Below, piece by piece: positions 46,628 through 55,162 of a DNA stretch of 64,000 nt. Origin of the DNA: Desulfobaculum xiamenense (GTDB lineage Bacteria > Desulfobacterota > Desulfovibrionia > Desulfovibrionales > Desulfovibrionaceae). The notes beneath the pieces are model-generated. The model was not told the origin of the DNA, did not search any database, and saw nothing but the letters and a program-made list of their open reading frames with translations. The translations under genes and the position numbers were made by a program. Location: the NCBI RefSeq assembly GCF_011927665.1, contig NZ_JAATJA010000001.1:1531019-1595018 (forward strand), in the 5' to 3' direction. Each line of letters starts with the position of its first letter. Position 1 is the stretch's first letter.

Positions 46628-47263
46628 CTAGCCGCGTCGCAGCAGGCGCAACTTGTCCAGCACGTCCTCGACCAACTCGTCCAGCGGGTCCTGCGCGCGT
46701 AGCACGAAGGTCGCCGCGTCGAGGTACAGCGGCTCGCGCTCAGCAAGGGTCGCACGCATCTCGTCCTCGGGCGAAAGGTCCGTCAGGGCGGGGCGCTGGC
46801 CCTCGGCGGGGTCGACCGCCAGACGGGACATCAGGAGCGCCACGTCCGCCATGAGGTAGAACACCGGACCGCCCGCGCGCATGAAGGCGCGGTTCTCGGC
46901 GTCGAGCACGATGCCCCCGCCCGTGGCCACCACGGCCCCGGCGTCGGCGGCTATGCCGCGCAGTGCCTCGCGCTCCATGCGCCGGAAGCTCTCCCAGCCG
47001 CCCTCGGCGACGATGTCGGCCACGTCGCGCCCGGCCGCCTGCCGCACCAGTTCGTCCGTGTCGAGAAACTCCCTCCCCAGACGCTTCGCCAACGCCCGAC
47101 CGAGGCTCGTCTTGCCGCTGGCTCGAAGGCCCACGAGGTAGACGTTGGTCCGCTCGCCGAAGTCCACCGGACGCGGCACATTCCCGAAGGTCATAACCCG
47201 TCCCTCGTCGGCGACGTCGTTTTTCCTGCACATCGCCCCTTCGGGCGTGATGAATCTCGCCAT
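46628..47263 (-). CDS. Shikimate kinase with N-terminal extension
   Basis: A 211-residue P-loop kinase that should phosphorylate shikimate in chorismate synthesis. Walker A GLRASGKT occupies 45-52. The shikimate-binding pattern follows: DTDELV, an F-R in GWESFRRME, and the Gly triplet in VVATGGGIVL. The family is usually 165-175 residues; the first 40 or so here (MARFITPEGAMCRKNDV...) are extra. The ATG at 47263 has AGGGAGA upstream, supporting the longer form, but a start at MTFGN about 24 residues in cannot be excluded. The final loop is somewhat diverged, so a related small-molecule kinase remains possible. Confidence 0.85.
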   Translation of the reverse strand: MARFITPEGAMCRKNDVADEGRVMTFGNVPRPVDFGERTNVYLVGLRASGKTSLGRALAKRLGREFLDTDELVRQAAGRDVADIVAEGGWESFRRMEREALRGIAADAGAVVATGGGIVLDAENRAFMRAGGPVFYLMADVALLMSRLAVDPAEGQRPALTDLSPEDEMRATLAEREPLYLDAATFVLRAQDPLDELVEDVLDKLRLLRRG

Positions 47264-47583: not shown

Positions 47584-48696
47584 ATGCAGAACACAACGTT
47601 GCGCATCCTGCTCGCAAATCCGAACCCGAACGACACGGCGCTCATTTCGCAGGCACTCGCCGAAGCTGGATTTCGCTTCCATATCGAAACGGCTGCGAAT
47701 GACGACGCGCTGCGTCGCATGCTAGGCGACGGCCCGGATCTGATCATCCGCCGGGACGCAGACGCGCCGCTACGAAACCTCATCCCGGCCACGATTCCCG
47801 TCATCGTCATATCGAACACGATGACCCACGAACGGGGCCGCGAGCTCGTCGAGTCCGGTGCCCACGACTACATGCACACGAGCGACATCGGGCGCCTTCC
47901 CGCCTCGGCGAGCCGCGCCCTGCGCGACGCAGCCCTGCGCCGCGCCAGCACCCAATCGCCGCTCGCCGACCACTTCGCGCAGGCGTACCGCCACAGCCTC
48001 GACGCCGTGGCCATGCTCGACATTGAGGAGCACGTGGTGGACATCAACGCCGCCTTCACGCGGCTGTTCGGATTCTCCATCGACGAGATGCGGGGCAGGC
48101 GGCTTTCGGACTGCATCATGCCGCAGGACAGGCGGGAGGAATTCATGTCCCTCACCGCACGGGTGCAGAACGGCGAAATGATTCGCCGCCGCACCACCCG
48201 CCTGCGCAAGGACGCAAGCCCGGTAGAGGTCATCGCCATCGGCGTCCCCGTGACGCTCGCCGACGGCAACCACGGCATCTGCGCCATCTACAGCGACATC
48301 TCGCCTCGGGAAAAGGCCATCCGCGCCCTGCGGCAGGCGGAATCGCGCTATCGAAGCTTCTTCATGGAGGCGGTGGAAGGGATGTTCATCTCCACACCGA
48401 CGGGGCGATTCATGCTGGCCAATCCGGCGCTGGCGGAACTTCTGGGCTACGAATCAGTCAGCGCGGTCACGGACGGCATCCGCAACATCAGCCGCGAGGT
48501 CTATGCGGATGCGTCCCAGCGGGACCGGCTGCTGGAACTGCTTGGCAGGCACGGCGCGGTACGGGATTTCCGCACGCGGGTGGTCAGGCGGGACGGCACG
48601 GTGATCACCGTGCGCCAGAATGTACGCGAGGTTCGCGACGAGGACGGCGAACTGCTCTACTATCAGGGCACCATGGCCCTGACGCAGGGAGGATGA
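47584..48696 (+). CDS. PAS-domain protein with a degenerate receiver-like domain
   Basis: A 370-residue cytosolic protein. Residues 1-115 have the alternating strands and helices of a response-regulator receiver, including VIVISNT and GAHDYM. However, the N-terminal acidic pair is replaced (LANPNPND), the phospho-acceptor position after PDLII is Arg, and the late Lys is absent. Two PAS domains follow (about 130-245 and 255-368), the first with a PAC-like end (GICAIYSDISPREKAI). There is no kinase, GGDEF, EAL or DNA-binding output domain. It may be a sensor or adaptor acting on a partner. GGGGGAG precedes the ATG. Confidence 0.82.
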   Translation: MQNTTLRILLANPNPNDTALISQALAEAGFRFHIETAANDDALRRMLGDGPDLIIRRDADAPLRNLIPATIPVIVISNTMTHERGRELVESGAHDYMHTSDIGRLPASASRALRDAALRRASTQSPLADHFAQAYRHSLDAVAMLDIEEHVVDINAAFTRLFGFSIDEMRGRRLSDCIMPQDRREEFMSLTARVQNGEMIRRRTTRLRKDASPVEVIAIGVPVTLADGNHGICAIYSDISPREKAIRALRQAESRYRSFFMEAVEGMFISTPTGRFMLANPALAELLGYESVSAVTDGIRNISREVYADASQRDRLLELLGRHGAVRDFRTRVVRRDGTVITVRQNVREVRDEDGELLYYQGTMALTQGG

Positions 48697-48734: not shown

Positions 48735-49214
48735 CTAGCTTTCACCCCGGTACTTGGTGTGGCAGTCCACGCACGCGCGCTTGACGCGATTGAGGTGCTG
48801 GTCCGCCTTCTTGGCGTCCTTGTCCGAGGCGATGCGCAGAAGCTTCTGCGCCTGCGCATTGAGGTACTCGGCCGCGGCCTGGAAGGACTGCGTGTCGGCC
48901 CCCTTGAAATACTTGTTTGACCCCTCGAAGGGGTAGGCGCTCTCGTGGCGATCGACGAAGACCAGCGGAATGAGCTGCGCCTTGGCCGAGACGGACAGGG
49001 CGGGGCTGACCACGCCGATCACGTCGCCCGATTCGATCTTGAGGCGGATGTCGCGCAAATCCGCGTTGAAGGAGCGCATGGCAAACTTGCGCGCCGCCAC
49101 GATATCCTGCGGAGAACTCTTGCCCGGCATGAGCGCCGTCTGCGCAAAGAGCGCCGAGGCCGCAAGAGTCATCGACATGCAAAGGACAAGAATTGCTCCG
49201 GTTCTGCTACGCAT
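48735..49214 (-). CDS. Cytochrome c'-like c-type cytochrome
   Basis: A 159-residue exported protein. A Sec signal peptide (about 1-25, ending ALFAQ) is followed by a helical body and the C-terminal haem motif CVDCH (148-152), the arrangement of four-helix cytochromes c'. The SAKAQLIPLVF and FEGSNKYF segments fit the family's helices B and C. Such proteins bind NO or CO or shuttle electrons in the periplasm. The start has GGGGGGAGG upstream. It converges on the PAS gene, with 38 bp between. Confidence 0.85.
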   Translation of the reverse strand: MRSRTGAILVLCMSMTLAASALFAQTALMPGKSSPQDIVAARKFAMRSFNADLRDIRLKIESGDVIGVVSPALSVSAKAQLIPLVFVDRHESAYPFEGSNKYFKGADTQSFQAAAEYLNAQAQKLLRIASDKDAKKADQHLNRVKRACVDCHTKYRGES

Positions 49215-49349
49215 GACCTCCCCCCGAGAACGACGGTTATGCCCACTCCCTCCGTCCCGAGGGACGCTCCGACGAAGCGGGCATGGTTTGGGACAATGCG
49301 GCAAGTGTAGCAGACCAGCGCTTTCATGCGCAACACGATTTGCGGACGT

Positions 49350-49846: not shown

Positions 49847-52800
49847 ATGAGCACCCAGAAGAAGTCCGCGGATAACACCTTCATCGACCGCATAAGCGCC
49901 CTGTACCTGAAACTTCTCGAAGAGAAGCAGGACGAGGGAGAAGCCCTGCGCAGCATCACCGCCTTCATCAACAAGGCACTCAAGAAGGTCGGCCTGAGCC
50001 TCGCCGCGGACAAGCTGGAGGAGCGCACGCAGAAGATCGCGAAGTTGGCCGTGGCCCGCGCCCAGAAGGCGCAGGCCGAAATGGAGCGGCGCTTCTGGCT
50101 CATGGACGTGAAGGTAGGCAAGGCCGGAAGCGGCTACACCATTTCCTTCCTGCCCGAGGTGCGCATCCGCAACACGCCGGAAAACAGGGACAAGTGGGAG
50201 AACTTCCTCGAAACCCTCGCCCCCAAGACGCGCATGGGCGCGGACCCGAAGACCGGCACCATCGCCATCCTCTACCGCGAAGGCGAATGGCTCGGCAACC
50301 TCATGCTCGCCGACGACGTTCGCTCTCTCCACATCCAGGACGACATCCACACCGTCAACGGCGACCTCATCGCGCGCGGCGCGCGCGTGGTCAACGCCGC
50401 GTTCACAGCCTCGCTCACCGTGAAGGGCGATCTGCACATCCACCACGAGCTGCTGAGACAGGACCCGCCGCCGCTGGTCATCGAGGGCGGGCTGAGCCTC
50501 TACGGCGTGAAGTCTCCGCTGGGGACTCCCTTCACGCCTGAACAGCTCATCAAGTGGGGACTTCGCGCTGGGCACCGCCTGAGCATCCGCAACGACATCT
50601 TTGTGCTCACCCCGCACGAGGGGGCCACCCAAAGCTGGGAACTGGCCGGCGAAAACGTGCTCAGCACATACATCTGGCAGACGGGCCAATGGCGGCTGGT
50701 GCGGCGCGAACGCATCGACGCCGCAGCCTTCGACCAGATTCACGCCCGCCTGAGCCGCATCTGTCTGATGCTCGGCCTCGGGGCGGACTTCGTGGCCAAG
50801 AGCGTCTCCCGCACGCAGGAGAACATCGACAAGATCGCCTTCTATCTCGACCTGGCGCGCACCCAAATGGTCAAGCCCCCCGCGCCGGACGACCCCGCGC
50901 TGGCTGCCGCGGCGAGCCTCATCGACAAGCTCGCCCGTGTGCGCGCGCCGTTCTCCGCCCCGATGATCAACGCGGACACCGTGTCCGCCGCCATCTCCGA
51001 GATCACGGACGAGGAAGTCACCGCTGCAGGGGAACTTGCCTCGCGCCCGCGCCACAAGATCAACGAAAAACTCATCCAGAACGACCTCAAGTACATCACA
51101 CATCTTATCGACGAGGATACCGACGCCAACGACCTGCTCGCCGACGGCCTAACCACGGCGCGCTTTCTCCACGTGACCTTCCGCTCGGACGACTCGCGCG
51201 CCAACCTCGCCTCCGTGGCGGGCAACATTCCCGACCTTTTCAATGGCCTCGCCGAACAGCTCTCCGCTTGCCAGCGCATCTCCTTCGAGCGCTTCCTCGA
51301 AGCGCCGGGAGCAGCTCTCACCCACCTGCGCAAGCTTCTCGCGAAGGATGCCGACGCCATCGCAAACCTCGACCGCATCGAAAACGAGGTGCGCATCCTC
51401 AAGCAGACGCGCCCCAAGGAACTCATCCGCAAGGTCGTGAGCGTCCCCTTCACCGTCGAAGACAAGGACTTCGCGGACGACAAGGCCCTTCTCAACGAAC
51501 TCTTCGCCATGCAGAAGGCCGAGCTCAAGGACCTGCCCTTCGACGCAGAACGCATGGTTGACCTACTCATCCCGCGCCTGTCGAGCTACGCCCGCGAACG
51601 GCTCGACATTATCCGCGCTGCATGGAAGGGCCGCCCGGACCCGAAGCGCCCCATGAGCTCCGCCATCGCCGAACAACTGCGCGAGCTTGCCCCCGGCGAA
51701 CTCATGCCCGCGCTGCGCCGCCTCATGTTGCTCGTGCTCGAAACCGTCCGCCGCTACAACGCGCTAAGCGTCAGCCCCGCCTCCGACGCCGAACACGGCG
51801 GCAAGCAGGTGCGCGCCGCGCTGCCAGCCGACGTGGTCATGAACATCCGCGGACGTCTCGGGCGCGCCTGTCTGGCTCTCGGCGTCGGCCGCTCGTTCAT
51901 CGACGACTACGCCGACGCGCTTGTCGGCAACCTGCTGAAGCTCGAATACTTCCTGCGCATCGTCCTTGGAGAGGCCGACGCGAAGAACGAATGCCTGCTC
52001 GACGACTCGGGACGCGAACTGACGCGCGAGGTCCTCAAGCGCTTCGAGACCATCCGCAACGCCGCCGAGAGCGGCACCGTGGGCGACGACCTGCACGAGG
52101 CCCTGAAGTTCCTGAAGGACGAACGCCTCGCCGAACTCGGGATGGTGCTCACCCGCCCCCGGCATCTCGTGGACGTCGAGACCCTGCGCAACGACGTCGC
52201 CACACTGCGCCAGCTTTCGGAGTCGTGTCTGACCATCGACAAGGTCTTCGCCTCGCCGGGGCGCTTCCTGCTGTTCATGAATTCCTGCGTGGAATCGAAG
52301 GAAATGAAGCGCACCGTGTCCACGTTCCTCAAACCGGTCTATTTCGCCATTGCGGAGCTTGCCAAGAGCAGCGAATCCCTCGCCAATCTCTCGCTCAACG
52401 ACGTCTTGCGCACGAGCTGCACGGTGGAGGAAGCCATGTCCCGCTTCGGCGACGAGGGCGATCCTGAAGCGCGCAAGAAGCTCGCCGCTGGCCTCAAGCA
52501 GATATGCAGCAAGGGCATTGCGGACATCATCTCCCACATGCGAAAGACCCGCGTGGAGAATCCACCAGCGGAACTGGAGCGCGATCAGGAATTCGTGGCC
52601 TCGCTCATGGCCTTCGAAAACGCCCCGCTGGATGCCCTCGGCCTCGACACGCGCCGCACGGCCATCCTGCTGCTTTTAAGCCTCGACTCCTTCATCGCCG
52701 CCGAGCTCAAGCGCCGCTTCGAGAGCGGAGCGTTGGAAGGCAAGGACGCCAAGTCCATCATCAAGGCCCTGCGCGCGGACCTCGAATGGCGCTACGCCAT

Positions 52801-52852
52801 CATCCGCGCCTACAACAAGCTCTCGACCCCCGCCCCCAAAAAACGCGTCTGA
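49847..52852 (+). CDS. Large protein of unknown function with internal duplication
   Basis: A 1001-residue protein, not recognised. No signal peptide or membrane segment, so cytosolic. Residues 1-85 are helical and charged. Residues about 140-225 are beta-rich, with repeated Gly-Asp-Leu steps (VNGDLIARG, VKGDLHIHH, IEGGLSLYG) like a short beta-solenoid. From residue 300 two units repeat: RLSRICLMLGLG (301) against RLGRACLALGVG (670), RPRHKINEKLIQND (400) against RPRHLVDVETLRND (770), a L-x6-A-x-L-x2-L-x2-D-x2-R block (about 548 against 916), and YNALS (637) against YNKLS (989). The offset is 368-370 residues over three blocks. The second unit ends at the C-terminus. No catalytic motif is visible. 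Start 49847 lacks a strong ribosome binding site. Confidence 0.8.
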   Translation: MSTQKKSADNTFIDRISALYLKLLEEKQDEGEALRSITAFINKALKKVGLSLAADKLEERTQKIAKLAVARAQKAQAEMERRFWLMDVKVGKAGSGYTISFLPEVRIRNTPENRDKWENFLETLAPKTRMGADPKTGTIAILYREGEWLGNLMLADDVRSLHIQDDIHTVNGDLIARGARVVNAAFTASLTVKGDLHIHHELLRQDPPPLVIEGGLSLYGVKSPLGTPFTPEQLIKWGLRAGHRLSIRNDIFVLTPHEGATQSWELAGENVLSTYIWQTGQWRLVRRERIDAAAFDQIHARLSRICLMLGLGADFVAKSVSRTQENIDKIAFYLDLARTQMVKPPAPDDPALAAAASLIDKLARVRAPFSAPMINADTVSAAISEITDEEVTAAGELASRPRHKINEKLIQNDLKYITHLIDEDTDANDLLADGLTTARFLHVTFRSDDSRANLASVAGNIPDLFNGLAEQLSACQRISFERFLEAPGAALTHLRKLLAKDADAIANLDRIENEVRILKQTRPKELIRKVVSVPFTVEDKDFADDKALLNELFAMQKAELKDLPFDAERMVDLLIPRLSSYARERLDIIRAAWKGRPDPKRPMSSAIAEQLRELAPGELMPALRRLMLLVLETVRRYNALSVSPASDAEHGGKQVRAALPADVVMNIRGRLGRACLALGVGRSFIDDYADALVGNLLKLEYFLRIVLGEADAKNECLLDDSGRELTREVLKRFETIRNAAESGTVGDDLHEALKFLKDERLAELGMVLTRPRHLVDVETLRNDVATLRQLSESCLTIDKVFASPGRFLLFMNSCVESKEMKRTVSTFLKPVYFAIAELAKSSESLANLSLNDVLRTSCTVEEAMSRFGDEGDPEARKKLAAGLKQICSKGIADIISHMRKTRVENPPAELERDQEFVASLMAFENAPLDALGLDTRRTAILLLLSLDSFIAAELKRRFESGALEGKDAKSIIKALRADLEWRYAIIRAYNKLSTPAPKKRV

Positions 52853-52994: not shown

Positions 52995-53354
52995 ATGACC
53001 CCGATCCCGGACATTGCCGCACTCATCAACTCGATGACCATCGCCCTGCGCAGGATCATCCACGACGGACCGCCGGAAGACCAGCCCGAGGAGGGCTGGT
53101 GGGTGCTCGTCTGCGGGCGTGCCCTCAATCCGGACGACTTCGAACAGCGCGAACTCGCCCGCCGCGAACTGCGTGAAATGCTCGACGCGCACGGCCTCAC
53201 CATGCGCGAATACATCTGGGTATGGGATAATACGGACACCGCGCAGGTCGTGGCCGGACGCCACGTGGAACGCCCCGCCGCCGATGACCACGCACGGGCG
53301 CTGGAACGCATGGGACTCAGAACACGCGTGGTTCCCCGCTTCAGGGACGTGTAG
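52995..53354 (+). CDS. Small hypothetical protein
   Basis: A 119-residue soluble protein without recognised family. The ATG at 52995 has GGAGGTG seven bases upstream, which favours it over an in-frame ATG at 52923. The sequence is acidic with several helices and a WVWDNTDTAQVV strand region; no cysteine motif or membrane segment. It lies 142 bp after the duplicated protein gene and 44 bp before the CLC gene, so it may be co-transcribed with the latter. Confidence 0.65.
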   Translation: MTPIPDIAALINSMTIALRRIIHDGPPEDQPEEGWWVLVCGRALNPDDFEQRELARRELREMLDAHGLTMREYIWVWDNTDTAQVVAGRHVERPAADDHARALERMGLRTRVVPRFRDV

Positions 53355-53398: not shown

Positions 53399-55162
53399 TT
53401 GCGAATTCCCCACGCCTGCCTCGACATATCCGCCGGCATTCGCCGCCTCGTCTTCGACACGCGGGTCTTCGGCCTGCTCCTCGCCATCTGCATCGGCGTT
53501 CTTTCCGGCTACGGGGCCATTCTGTTCCATCACGTCCTGCAATGGGCGCAATACGTCTTCTACCAGCAACGGGGTGACATCCTCGGCTTCGCCGCCGCCA
53601 TTCCGGGATGGCGTCTCGCGCTGACGCCCGCCCTCGGCGGGCTCATCGTCGGACTCGTCGTGCATTTCGGAGCCAGCGAGGCACGCGGGCACGGCGTTCC
53701 CGAGGTCATGACCGCCCTCGCCCTCAAGGGCGGACGCATCCGCAAGCGCGTGGCCCTCATCAAGATTCTGGCCTCGGCGGTGTGCATCGGCTCGGGCGGC
53801 TCGTCGGGGCGCGAAGGTCCCATGGTCCAGATCGGATCGAGCATCGGCTCCACCATCGGACAGTACTTCCGCGTTCCGGTCATGGAGCAGCGAACCATGG
53901 TCGGCTGCGGCGCGGCGGCGGGCATAGCCGCCACGTTCAACGCCCCCATCGCGGGCGTTCTGTTCGCGCTGGAGGTGCTGGTGGGCGACTTCGGGCTGGC
54001 CTCGTTCTCGCCGGTGGTGCTCTCCTCGGTGACGGCCACGGCCATCTCCCGCCACTACTGGGGCGACCTGCCCACCTTCCAACTCCCGCTCTACGAAATC
54101 CGCTCGCTGTGGGAATTCGGCATCTACCCGCTTCTGGGCATCTTCGCCGCGCTGTGCGCCGTGGCCTTCATCTCCACGCTCTACAAGGCCGAGGACCTGT
54201 TCGCGAAGCTCCCTCTGCCCAACTGGCTCAAGCCCGCCATCGGCGGTCTACTCCTCGGCGGCATCATCCTCCAGTGGCCCCACGCCTTCGGCGTCGGCTA
54301 CGGCGGCATGAACATGGCCCTCACCGGCCAGCTTTCGGGACTCATGCTCCTCACGCTCATCGCGGTAAAAATCATGGCCACGTCATGCACCCTCGGCTCC
54401 GGCGGCTCGGGCGGCATCTTCGCGCCGTCGCTGTTCATCGGAGCCATGTGCGGCGGCTTCTTCGGCTGGGCCGCAGGCCAGCTCTTCCCCGCCGTGGCTG
54501 CACCGTCCGGCGCGTACGCGCTGGTGGGCATGGGGGCGGTGGTGGCGGGCACCACCCACGCGCCCATCACCGCCATCCTCATCATTTTCGAGATGACCGG
54601 CGACTACAAGATCATCCTGCCCATGATGATCACCTGCATCATCGCCACCCTCGTGGCCTCGTCGCTACGCGAAGGCTCCATCTACACCATCAAGCTACGC
54701 ATGCGCGGCATCGACATCTCCGGCGGCATGGAACAGAACATCCTGCGCAACCTGCGGGTGGGGCGGTTCATGACCCCCAACCCGGCCATCATCCCGCAAT
54801 CCATGCCGCTCATCGACATCATCGCCACATTCAGAAACGCCGACGTCTCCTACCTGCACGTCACCGATGCTGACGAAAACCTCACCGGCATCATCTCCTT
54901 CCGCGACATCCGCCCCATCATGCACGAGGAGGCCCTGCACCGCCTCGTCATCGCACAGGACGTCGCCACGCGCGACGTAGTCACCGTCCGCCCGGACGAC
55001 AGCATTCAGTCTGCCCTGCGCGTCATGAGCACACACGGCATCTCGCAGTTGCCGGTGGTCCGCCACGGCGCGGACCGGCGCGTCATCGGCACCCTACGCC
55101 AGAAGGACGTCCTCGCCGCCTACGACAAGGCCGTCATCCGCCGCGAAATCGAAGATTCCTGA
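53399..55162 (+). CDS. CLC-family chloride channel/transporter with CBS domains
   Basis: A 587-residue inner-membrane protein. The CLC core (about 20-430) has the anion-selectivity motifs GSGGSSGREGP, with the gating glutamate present, and GSGGSGGIFAPSLFIG, plus the GTTHAPITAILIIFEMTGD segment. The C-terminal 130 residues are two CBS domains (from about VGRFMTPNPAI), which usually bind adenosine nucleotides and regulate transport. The start is a TTG behind CAGGAGGG. Whether it is a channel or a Cl-/H+ exchanger cannot be read with certainty; the anion is not proven either. Confidence 0.92.
   Translation: MRIPHACLDISAGIRRLVFDTRVFGLLLAICIGVLSGYGAILFHHVLQWAQYVFYQQRGDILGFAAAIPGWRLALTPALGGLIVGLVVHFGASEARGHGVPEVMTALALKGGRIRKRVALIKILASAVCIGSGGSSGREGPMVQIGSSIGSTIGQYFRVPVMEQRTMVGCGAAAGIAATFNAPIAGVLFALEVLVGDFGLASFSPVVLSSVTATAISRHYWGDLPTFQLPLYEIRSLWEFGIYPLLGIFAALCAVAFISTLYKAEDLFAKLPLPNWLKPAIGGLLLGGIILQWPHAFGVGYGGMNMALTGQLSGLMLLTLIAVKIMATSCTLGSGGSGGIFAPSLFIGAMCGGFFGWAAGQLFPAVAAPSGAYALVGMGAVVAGTTHAPITAILIIFEMTGDYKIILPMMITCIIATLVASSLREGSIYTIKLRMRGIDISGGMEQNILRNLRVGRFMTPNPAIIPQSMPLIDIIATFRNADVSYLHVTDADENLTGIISFRDIRPIMHEEALHRLVIAQDVATRDVVTVRPDDSIQSALRVMSTHGISQLPVVRHGADRRVIGTLRQKDVLAAYDKAVIRREIEDS

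Follow-up and report, generated by a model that had tools for sequence, protein, structure and literature searches.

The window analyzed here is a 64,000-nucleotide stretch of the genome of Desulfobaculum xiamenense (RefSeq contig NZ_JAATJA010000001.1, positions 1,531,019 to 1,595,018). On its forward strand, an open reading frame at positions 49847 to 52852 encodes a protein of 1,001 amino acids with two helical units, referred to here as the long form. Homologs aligning across almost the whole profile are encoded in five other genomes (designated G001, G003, G189, G105, and G338; the genome of D. xiamenense is G000). The first 84 residues (positions 49847 to 50098) form an N-terminal helical region, delimited by the family alignment and by helices at residues 2 to 27, 30 to 47, and 54 to 83 in a low-confidence full-length AlphaFold2 model. 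This is followed by a beta-rich region at residues 85 to 289 (positions 50099 to 50713) that has Gly-Asp-Leu steps and in which Trp residues are invariant; F, W, D, R, and G are among the residues that do not vary there in the family alignment, and the same low-confidence model places one helix in the region, at residues 111 to 124. The remainder of the protein consists of helical unit A (residues 290 to 642, positions 50714 to 51772) and helical unit B (residues 658 to 1001, positions 51818 to 52849). No signal peptide, transmembrane segment, or membrane anchor was seen by eye.

Upstream of the long form are a short reverse-strand open reading frame of doubtful status, a cytochrome c' gene on the reverse strand (positions 48735 to 49304; PF01322, E value of 7.4e-10), and a forward-strand gene at positions 47584 to 48696 which, in a Pfam search of the window copy, encodes a protein with two PAS domains, a degenerate receiver-like start, and no recognized output domain. 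Downstream, also on the forward strand, is a small gene at positions 52995 to 53354 (119 amino acids from the start chosen), whose product resembles DUF6894 at a subthreshold level (E value of 0.0034; 17.9 bits against a Pfam cutoff of 24.1). The first-pass annotation had placed the long form between two unknown genes, a description that holds only in part, given the subthreshold likeness of the small downstream gene to DUF6894 and the cytochrome c' and PAS-PAS genes on the upstream side. The small downstream gene was dropped as a partner specific to the long form, as it was found in 87 of the 348 genomes of the order.

The two helical units are related by an internal tandem duplication. Sequence blocks recur in the same order in both halves of the protein, with RLSRICLMLGLG at residue 301 matched by RLGRACLALGVG at residue 670 (an offset of 369), RPRHKINEKLIQND at residue 400 by RPRHLVDVETLRND at residue 770 (an offset of 370, with the inner Leu displaced by one residue), AELKDLPFDAER at residue 558 by APLDALGLDTRR at residue 926 (an offset of 368), and YNALS at residue 637 by YNKLS at residue 989 (an offset of 352). 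When the two halves were compared by BLASTP without the aid of relatives, the match scored 50.1 bits (E value of 2.3e-11), while the highest score in 200 shuffles was 28.9 bits. Profile-profile comparison of unit A with unit B gave a single colinear alignment of 330 columns with a probability of 99.9 and an E value of 2.2e-36; a control comparison of the beta-rich region with unit B gave a probability of 0.15. The helix list of the full-length model (pLDDT of 62.5) likewise has mostly the same order and spacing of helices in both halves, with some helices split or fused. An internal duplication of a helical unit, motif blocks at a constant offset, and a small beta region with Gly-Asp-Leu steps ahead of the units had all been proposed from the sequence at first sight, together with a profile-profile alignment of the halves as a check. 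Support for the duplication comes from the halves alone, from the profiles, and from the single-unit relatives and unit tree described below; the motif blocks were found at the offsets given above, and the beta-rich stretch is present in both the alignment and the model.

Relatives containing only one unit occur in the same lineage. A paralog of 654 amino acids is encoded on another contig of the D. xiamenense genome (L002:1216-3177; about G000:C5:8799-10763), and it can be aligned with the long form along its whole length, from the N-terminal helices through the beta region to the helical unit, at 23% identity, the difference being that it has one helical unit where the long form has two. A search of 348 genomes of the order identified 12 carriers in 8 of 59 genera, all belonging to one bacterial family. 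A class-level search, also of 348 genomes, returned the same 12 carriers, and in a phylum-wide sample of 395 genomes the only match was the D. xiamenense genome itself. The carriers yielded a set of 16 proteins, comprising nine long forms (G000, G001, G003, G189, G105, G338, G087, G088, and G089) and seven short forms of about 650 amino acids (G000, G003, G189, G338, G085, G240, and G337); in the alignment, the end of the short form coincides with the end of unit A of the long form. The long forms of G087 (L012:1516-4245), G088 (L011:1513-4236), and G089 (L013:1495-4233) are without the N-terminal helical region. When the 12 carriers were searched with the unit profile, just 25 units were recovered, plus one weak match (G000 C1:1170438; E value of 0.00385) that was taken as chance, as was a fragment in G317 that contains a stop and matched the beta-region profile at an E value of 6.9e-4.

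A scan of contigs with two strict peptide patterns gave 40 candidate stretches, of which 3 loci were confirmed, in two genomes: two in the metagenome-assembled genome Proteobacteria bacterium MM_PC_MetaG.mb.39 and one in Desulfovibrio sp. UBA6079, whose protein is the same as that of G337. This small yield says little, because the patterns missed most of the known carriers. The long form had no tblastn match in 50,697 phage records at an E value of 0.01, no copies of it were found on plasmids, and a scan of viral contigs by six peptide patterns gave six fitting stretches, none of which was confirmed. Within the genomes searched, the protein family is restricted to one bacterial family, to which Desulfovibrio also belongs.

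A tree of the 25 units (nine A, nine B, and seven single-copy units; midpoint root) placed the A units (support of 99/97), the B units (98/95), and the single units (92/89, which is under the starred level) in separate groups, with one change needed for each. This grouping indicates a single duplication of the unit, older than the divergence among the long forms in the sample. The midpoint-rooted tree and the profile matches only hint that the single units are nearer to B than to A; the profile of the single units matched B with an E value of 7.4e-37 and A with an E value of 2.4e-29. The beta regions (residues 85 to 289) of the long-form and short-form copies are also separated in their tree, with support of 100/100.

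Each unit is itself likely to be composed of two modules of about 130 residues and seven helices that arose by an older duplication, so that the long form would hold four modules. The bounds of the modules are approximate and were drawn from the nested-duplication comparisons and from model helices, those of the full-length model for A1 (positions 50894 to 51283) and A2 (positions 51284 to 51760, containing an insertion relative to B2) and those of the unit model for B1 (positions 52004 to 52393; helices within residues 63 to 184 of the unit) and B2 (positions 52394 to 52819; residues 193 to 334). When the first 172 columns of the pooled unit profile were compared with the last 164, the score was 33.5 over 95 columns (E value of 6.4e-5; probability of 64). 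Controls scored lower, reaching at most 18.3 in 150 column shuffles, 14.6 with reversed halves, and 27.8 in 300 shuffles of 10- and 20-column blocks, in which the local helix pattern was kept. The whole unit profile compared with itself recovered the same off-diagonal, with a probability of only 15.6 and an E value of 0.0017, and nine comparisons among subsets of A, B, and single units were each weak (scores of 15.1 to 27.7), all in roughly one register. In all 25 units an Asp is present at both module-equivalent places; a Ser lies 34 columns after it in 24 of the units at the first place and 35 columns after it in 19 at the second. When the helix list of the unit model was read by eye, most helices of one module had a counterpart in the other about 130 residues further on, with some helices split. 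The protein is a clean example of how a large protein can grow through duplication, here probably in two rounds, one nested in the other, from 130 to 340 and then to about 690 helical residues, and the later step is directly readable because the single-unit state persists as a paralog in the same genome.

The full-length AlphaFold2 model, built from four sequences, is of low confidence (pLDDT of 62.5; pTM of 0.32) and shows helices at the N terminus, beta-rich structure from about residue 140 to 290, and two helical halves. Unit B was modeled separately from an input of six rows, made up of both units of the long form, used as mutual relatives, and four units from other loci; this model is confident and all helical (pLDDT of 89.8; pTM of 0.82). 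A Foldseek search of the PDB with unit B returned nothing at an E value of 0.001 (the best match was at 0.17), a search of a viral structure library gave no significant match (best E value of 0.032), and the best VIA Z score, 7.2 over 107 residues, was to a designed homotetramer. Structure searches with the full-length model gave matches at the background level only. The match scores of the predicted unit are background for helical models, and a new fold is not thereby proven. Because its predicted fold is confident and no solved structure was found to be alike in the searches made, the unit is a sensible target for structure determination.

It had been suggested from the sequence alone that the protein belongs to no recognized family and carries no enzyme motif, and neither suggestion was overturned: there was no significant match in Pfam, NCBIfam, PHROGs, or PADLOC, no enzyme model scored above chance, and no active-site pattern was recognized among the best-conserved positions of the unit (Asp, Asn, and Leu, followed by Gly and Ser). 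With Pfam, searched with all 16 members at E values up to 0.5, 17 families were listed, each as a chance-level match to one member. NCBIfam gave no match above chance. PHROGs, at E values up to 1, gave no match to the long form and one chance-level match to the short form (E value of 0.33), and PADLOC, also at E values up to 1, matched none of three proteins (the long form, the short form of the same genome, and the small downstream neighbor). Sequence searches of the PDB returned nothing or chance-level matches, and a narrow literature search found no publications on the long-form protein. The repeats of TPR, HEAT, and ARM proteins are 34 to 50 residues long with two or three helices. These solenoids share with the long form the use of all-helical modules multiplied through duplication, but the repeats of the long form are about 340 residues long and, at the nested level, about 130 residues with about seven helices, and none of the 16 members matched the TPR, HEAT, or ARM models of Pfam at E values up to 0.5. 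The long and short forms make up a protein family that is new and narrow, whose duplication history is probably nested and whose predicted fold was unmatched in the searches made.

One chromosomal locus is common to six of the nine long forms. In D. xiamenense the long form is surrounded by genes for ClpB, a MerR-type regulator, a J-domain protein (identified by eye), a polysaccharide deacetylase-like protein, a CLC channel, and pyruvate/2-oxoacid:ferredoxin oxidoreductase. Most of these neighbors are also near the long form in G001, G003, G189, G105, and G338, within the reach of the stretches available; the G105 stretch does not contain CLC, and the G338 stretch, which stops at a contig end, does not contain ClpB. 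The gene calls used for these comparisons came from a simple codon-score script, so that starts are approximate and short genes may be missed. In G087 to G089 the long form has a different neighborhood, ahead of a gene with NMT1-like domains.

The long form is the fastest diverging of the block genes compared, with 36 to 39% identity. The corresponding values are 39 to 46% for the DUF6894-like gene, 43 to 53% for the PAS gene, 47 to 50% for the gene at positions 46628 to 47233, 67 to 76% for CLC, and 78 to 82% for ClpB. In simple NG86 estimates, in which some dS values are near saturation, dN was below dS in all four pairs of relatives, namely, the long forms of G003 and G189 (dN of 0.171; dS of 1.08), of G088 and G087 (0.107; 0.593), and of G088 and G089 (0.317; 0.498, a modest constraint), and the short forms of G003 and G189 (0.229; 1.386).

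The PAS-PAS gene is perhaps a partner of the long form, a candidate suggested by gene order. In four of the nine long-form carriers (G000, G001, G105, and G338) it lies upstream of the long form in the same orientation, and in the other five (G003, G189, and G087 to G089) it is not adjacent. By approximate gene calls the gap between the two genes is about 120 bases in G105; in the window they are separated by the two reverse-strand open reading frames, of which the cytochrome gene has a counterpart in the equivalent place in G338 (L043:7760-8236). A search with a model of the PAS protein at a cutoff of 1e-60 matched 10 of 348 genomes. The strong matches, at 426 to 631 bits, were in G000, G001, G105, and G338, all of them long-form carriers, and these scores are high partly by construction, because the same four sequences were rows of the model; the other six, at 209 to 229 bits, all belong to one other genus. 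The four loci amount to approximately one evolutionary observation, since they share one common ancestral neighborhood. The presence of the gene upstream in four genomes makes it a concrete first candidate for interaction studies.

We hypothesize that the long form is a cytoplasmic, nonenzymatic scaffold or adaptor and, in some genomes, a partner of the upstream PAS-PAS sensor, a tentative reading to which we assign a rough probability of 0.4. It draws on the lack of enzyme signatures, the multiplication of helical modules, and the chromosomal, apparently nonmobile setting. The helical modules would provide an extended binding surface, with its valency doubled in the long form, and the beta-rich region may provide a cap or a face for docking. 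For some genomes at least, we picture the long form as working downstream of a stand-alone PAS-PAS sensor, whose ligand or redox state might alter the docking of the sensor on the scaffold. A bolder version, which we consider quite doubtful, is that a new fold built by two tandem duplications within one family of Desulfovibrio relatives forms, with the PAS-PAS protein, a two-gene sensory module without a kinase, cyclase, or DNA-binding output, in which the sensor docks on a multivalent helical scaffold.

The tandem helical modules could instead serve as a rod in a purely structural or assembly protein, such as a cytoskeletal or envelope-linked strut. Vinculin, alpha-catenin, and talin, which likewise consist of consecutive helical bundles, occupy some of the first rows in the structure lists, and vinculin and catenin, helical-bundle proteins of adhesion, rank high there, although not significantly. 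These matches are at the background level (best Foldseek E values of 0.17 with the unit as query and 0.029 with the full model, and query TM-scores of at most 0.18; VIA Z scores of about 5 to 6 over 77 to 92 residues in the low-rmsd rows), and the three proteins are absent from the sequence-search matches. The vinculin and catenin rows, like those of GPCRs and TRP channels, were set aside as generic helical arrangements, and no membrane anchor was seen by eye. We regard a purely structural role as unlikely.

The conserved Asp speaks against a scaffold, as a residue present in each module might be catalytic, and all-helical enzymes exist. It may be that the protein is an enzyme with a new all-helical fold, whose active sites are made up of the module Asp and Ser or of the aromatic residues of the beta region; the invariance of the Asp at both module-equivalent places in every unit and the invariant F, W, D, R, and G of the beta region would fit. 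We regard this as distinctly unlikely, as no enzyme model scored above chance, the Ser is found at the second place in just 19 of the 25 units, and an Asp and Ser that recur from module to module would suit helix capping or packing better than a single active site.

Among secreted effectors are proteins built with an LRR-like beta region ahead of helical modules. The beta region shares short Gly-Asp-Leu beta steps with LRR proteins, and its profile matched the LRR chain 8z5u of the PDB over 48 columns at an E value of 0.051, which is not significant; it differs in having few steps and no Pfam LRR match. Together with this weak similarity, the divergence of the long form to 36 to 39% identity, against 67 to 82% for the syntenic ClpB, CLC, and oxidoreductase genes, might point to an exported or injected effector. 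However, rapid divergence is common to the neighboring PAS and DUF6894-like genes, no signal peptide or transmembrane segment was seen by eye, the chromosomal neighborhood is common to six genomes, and no phage or plasmid copies were found, all of which make an effector improbable. Least probable of all is a lineage-specific antiphage or mobile-element protein, for which the patchy distribution (12 of 348 genomes) and the size of this orphan multidomain protein could be cited, given that PADLOC gave no match and PHROGs none above chance, that no match was found in phages, plasmids, or viral contigs (the last scanned by six peptide patterns), and that the neighbors are ClpB, a MerR-type regulator, a CLC channel, and a 2-oxoacid oxidoreductase, which are not defense genes.

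In G003, G189, and G338 the gene next to the short form encodes malic enzyme, and in D. xiamenense a malic enzyme gene is nearby. Malic enzyme was set aside as a short-form partner because the short forms of G085, G337, and G240 have other neighbors. In the window, the CLC channel gene (positions 53399 to 55162) encodes a protein with CBS domains that is 72 to 73% identical to its counterparts in G001 and G003. In a search of 19 relatives in addition to the D. xiamenense genome, these two were the only ones with such a close ortholog and also the only carriers of the long form; the other CLC matches listed in the relatives were at 43% identity or less, and the CLC channel of the window looks like a distinct subfamily.
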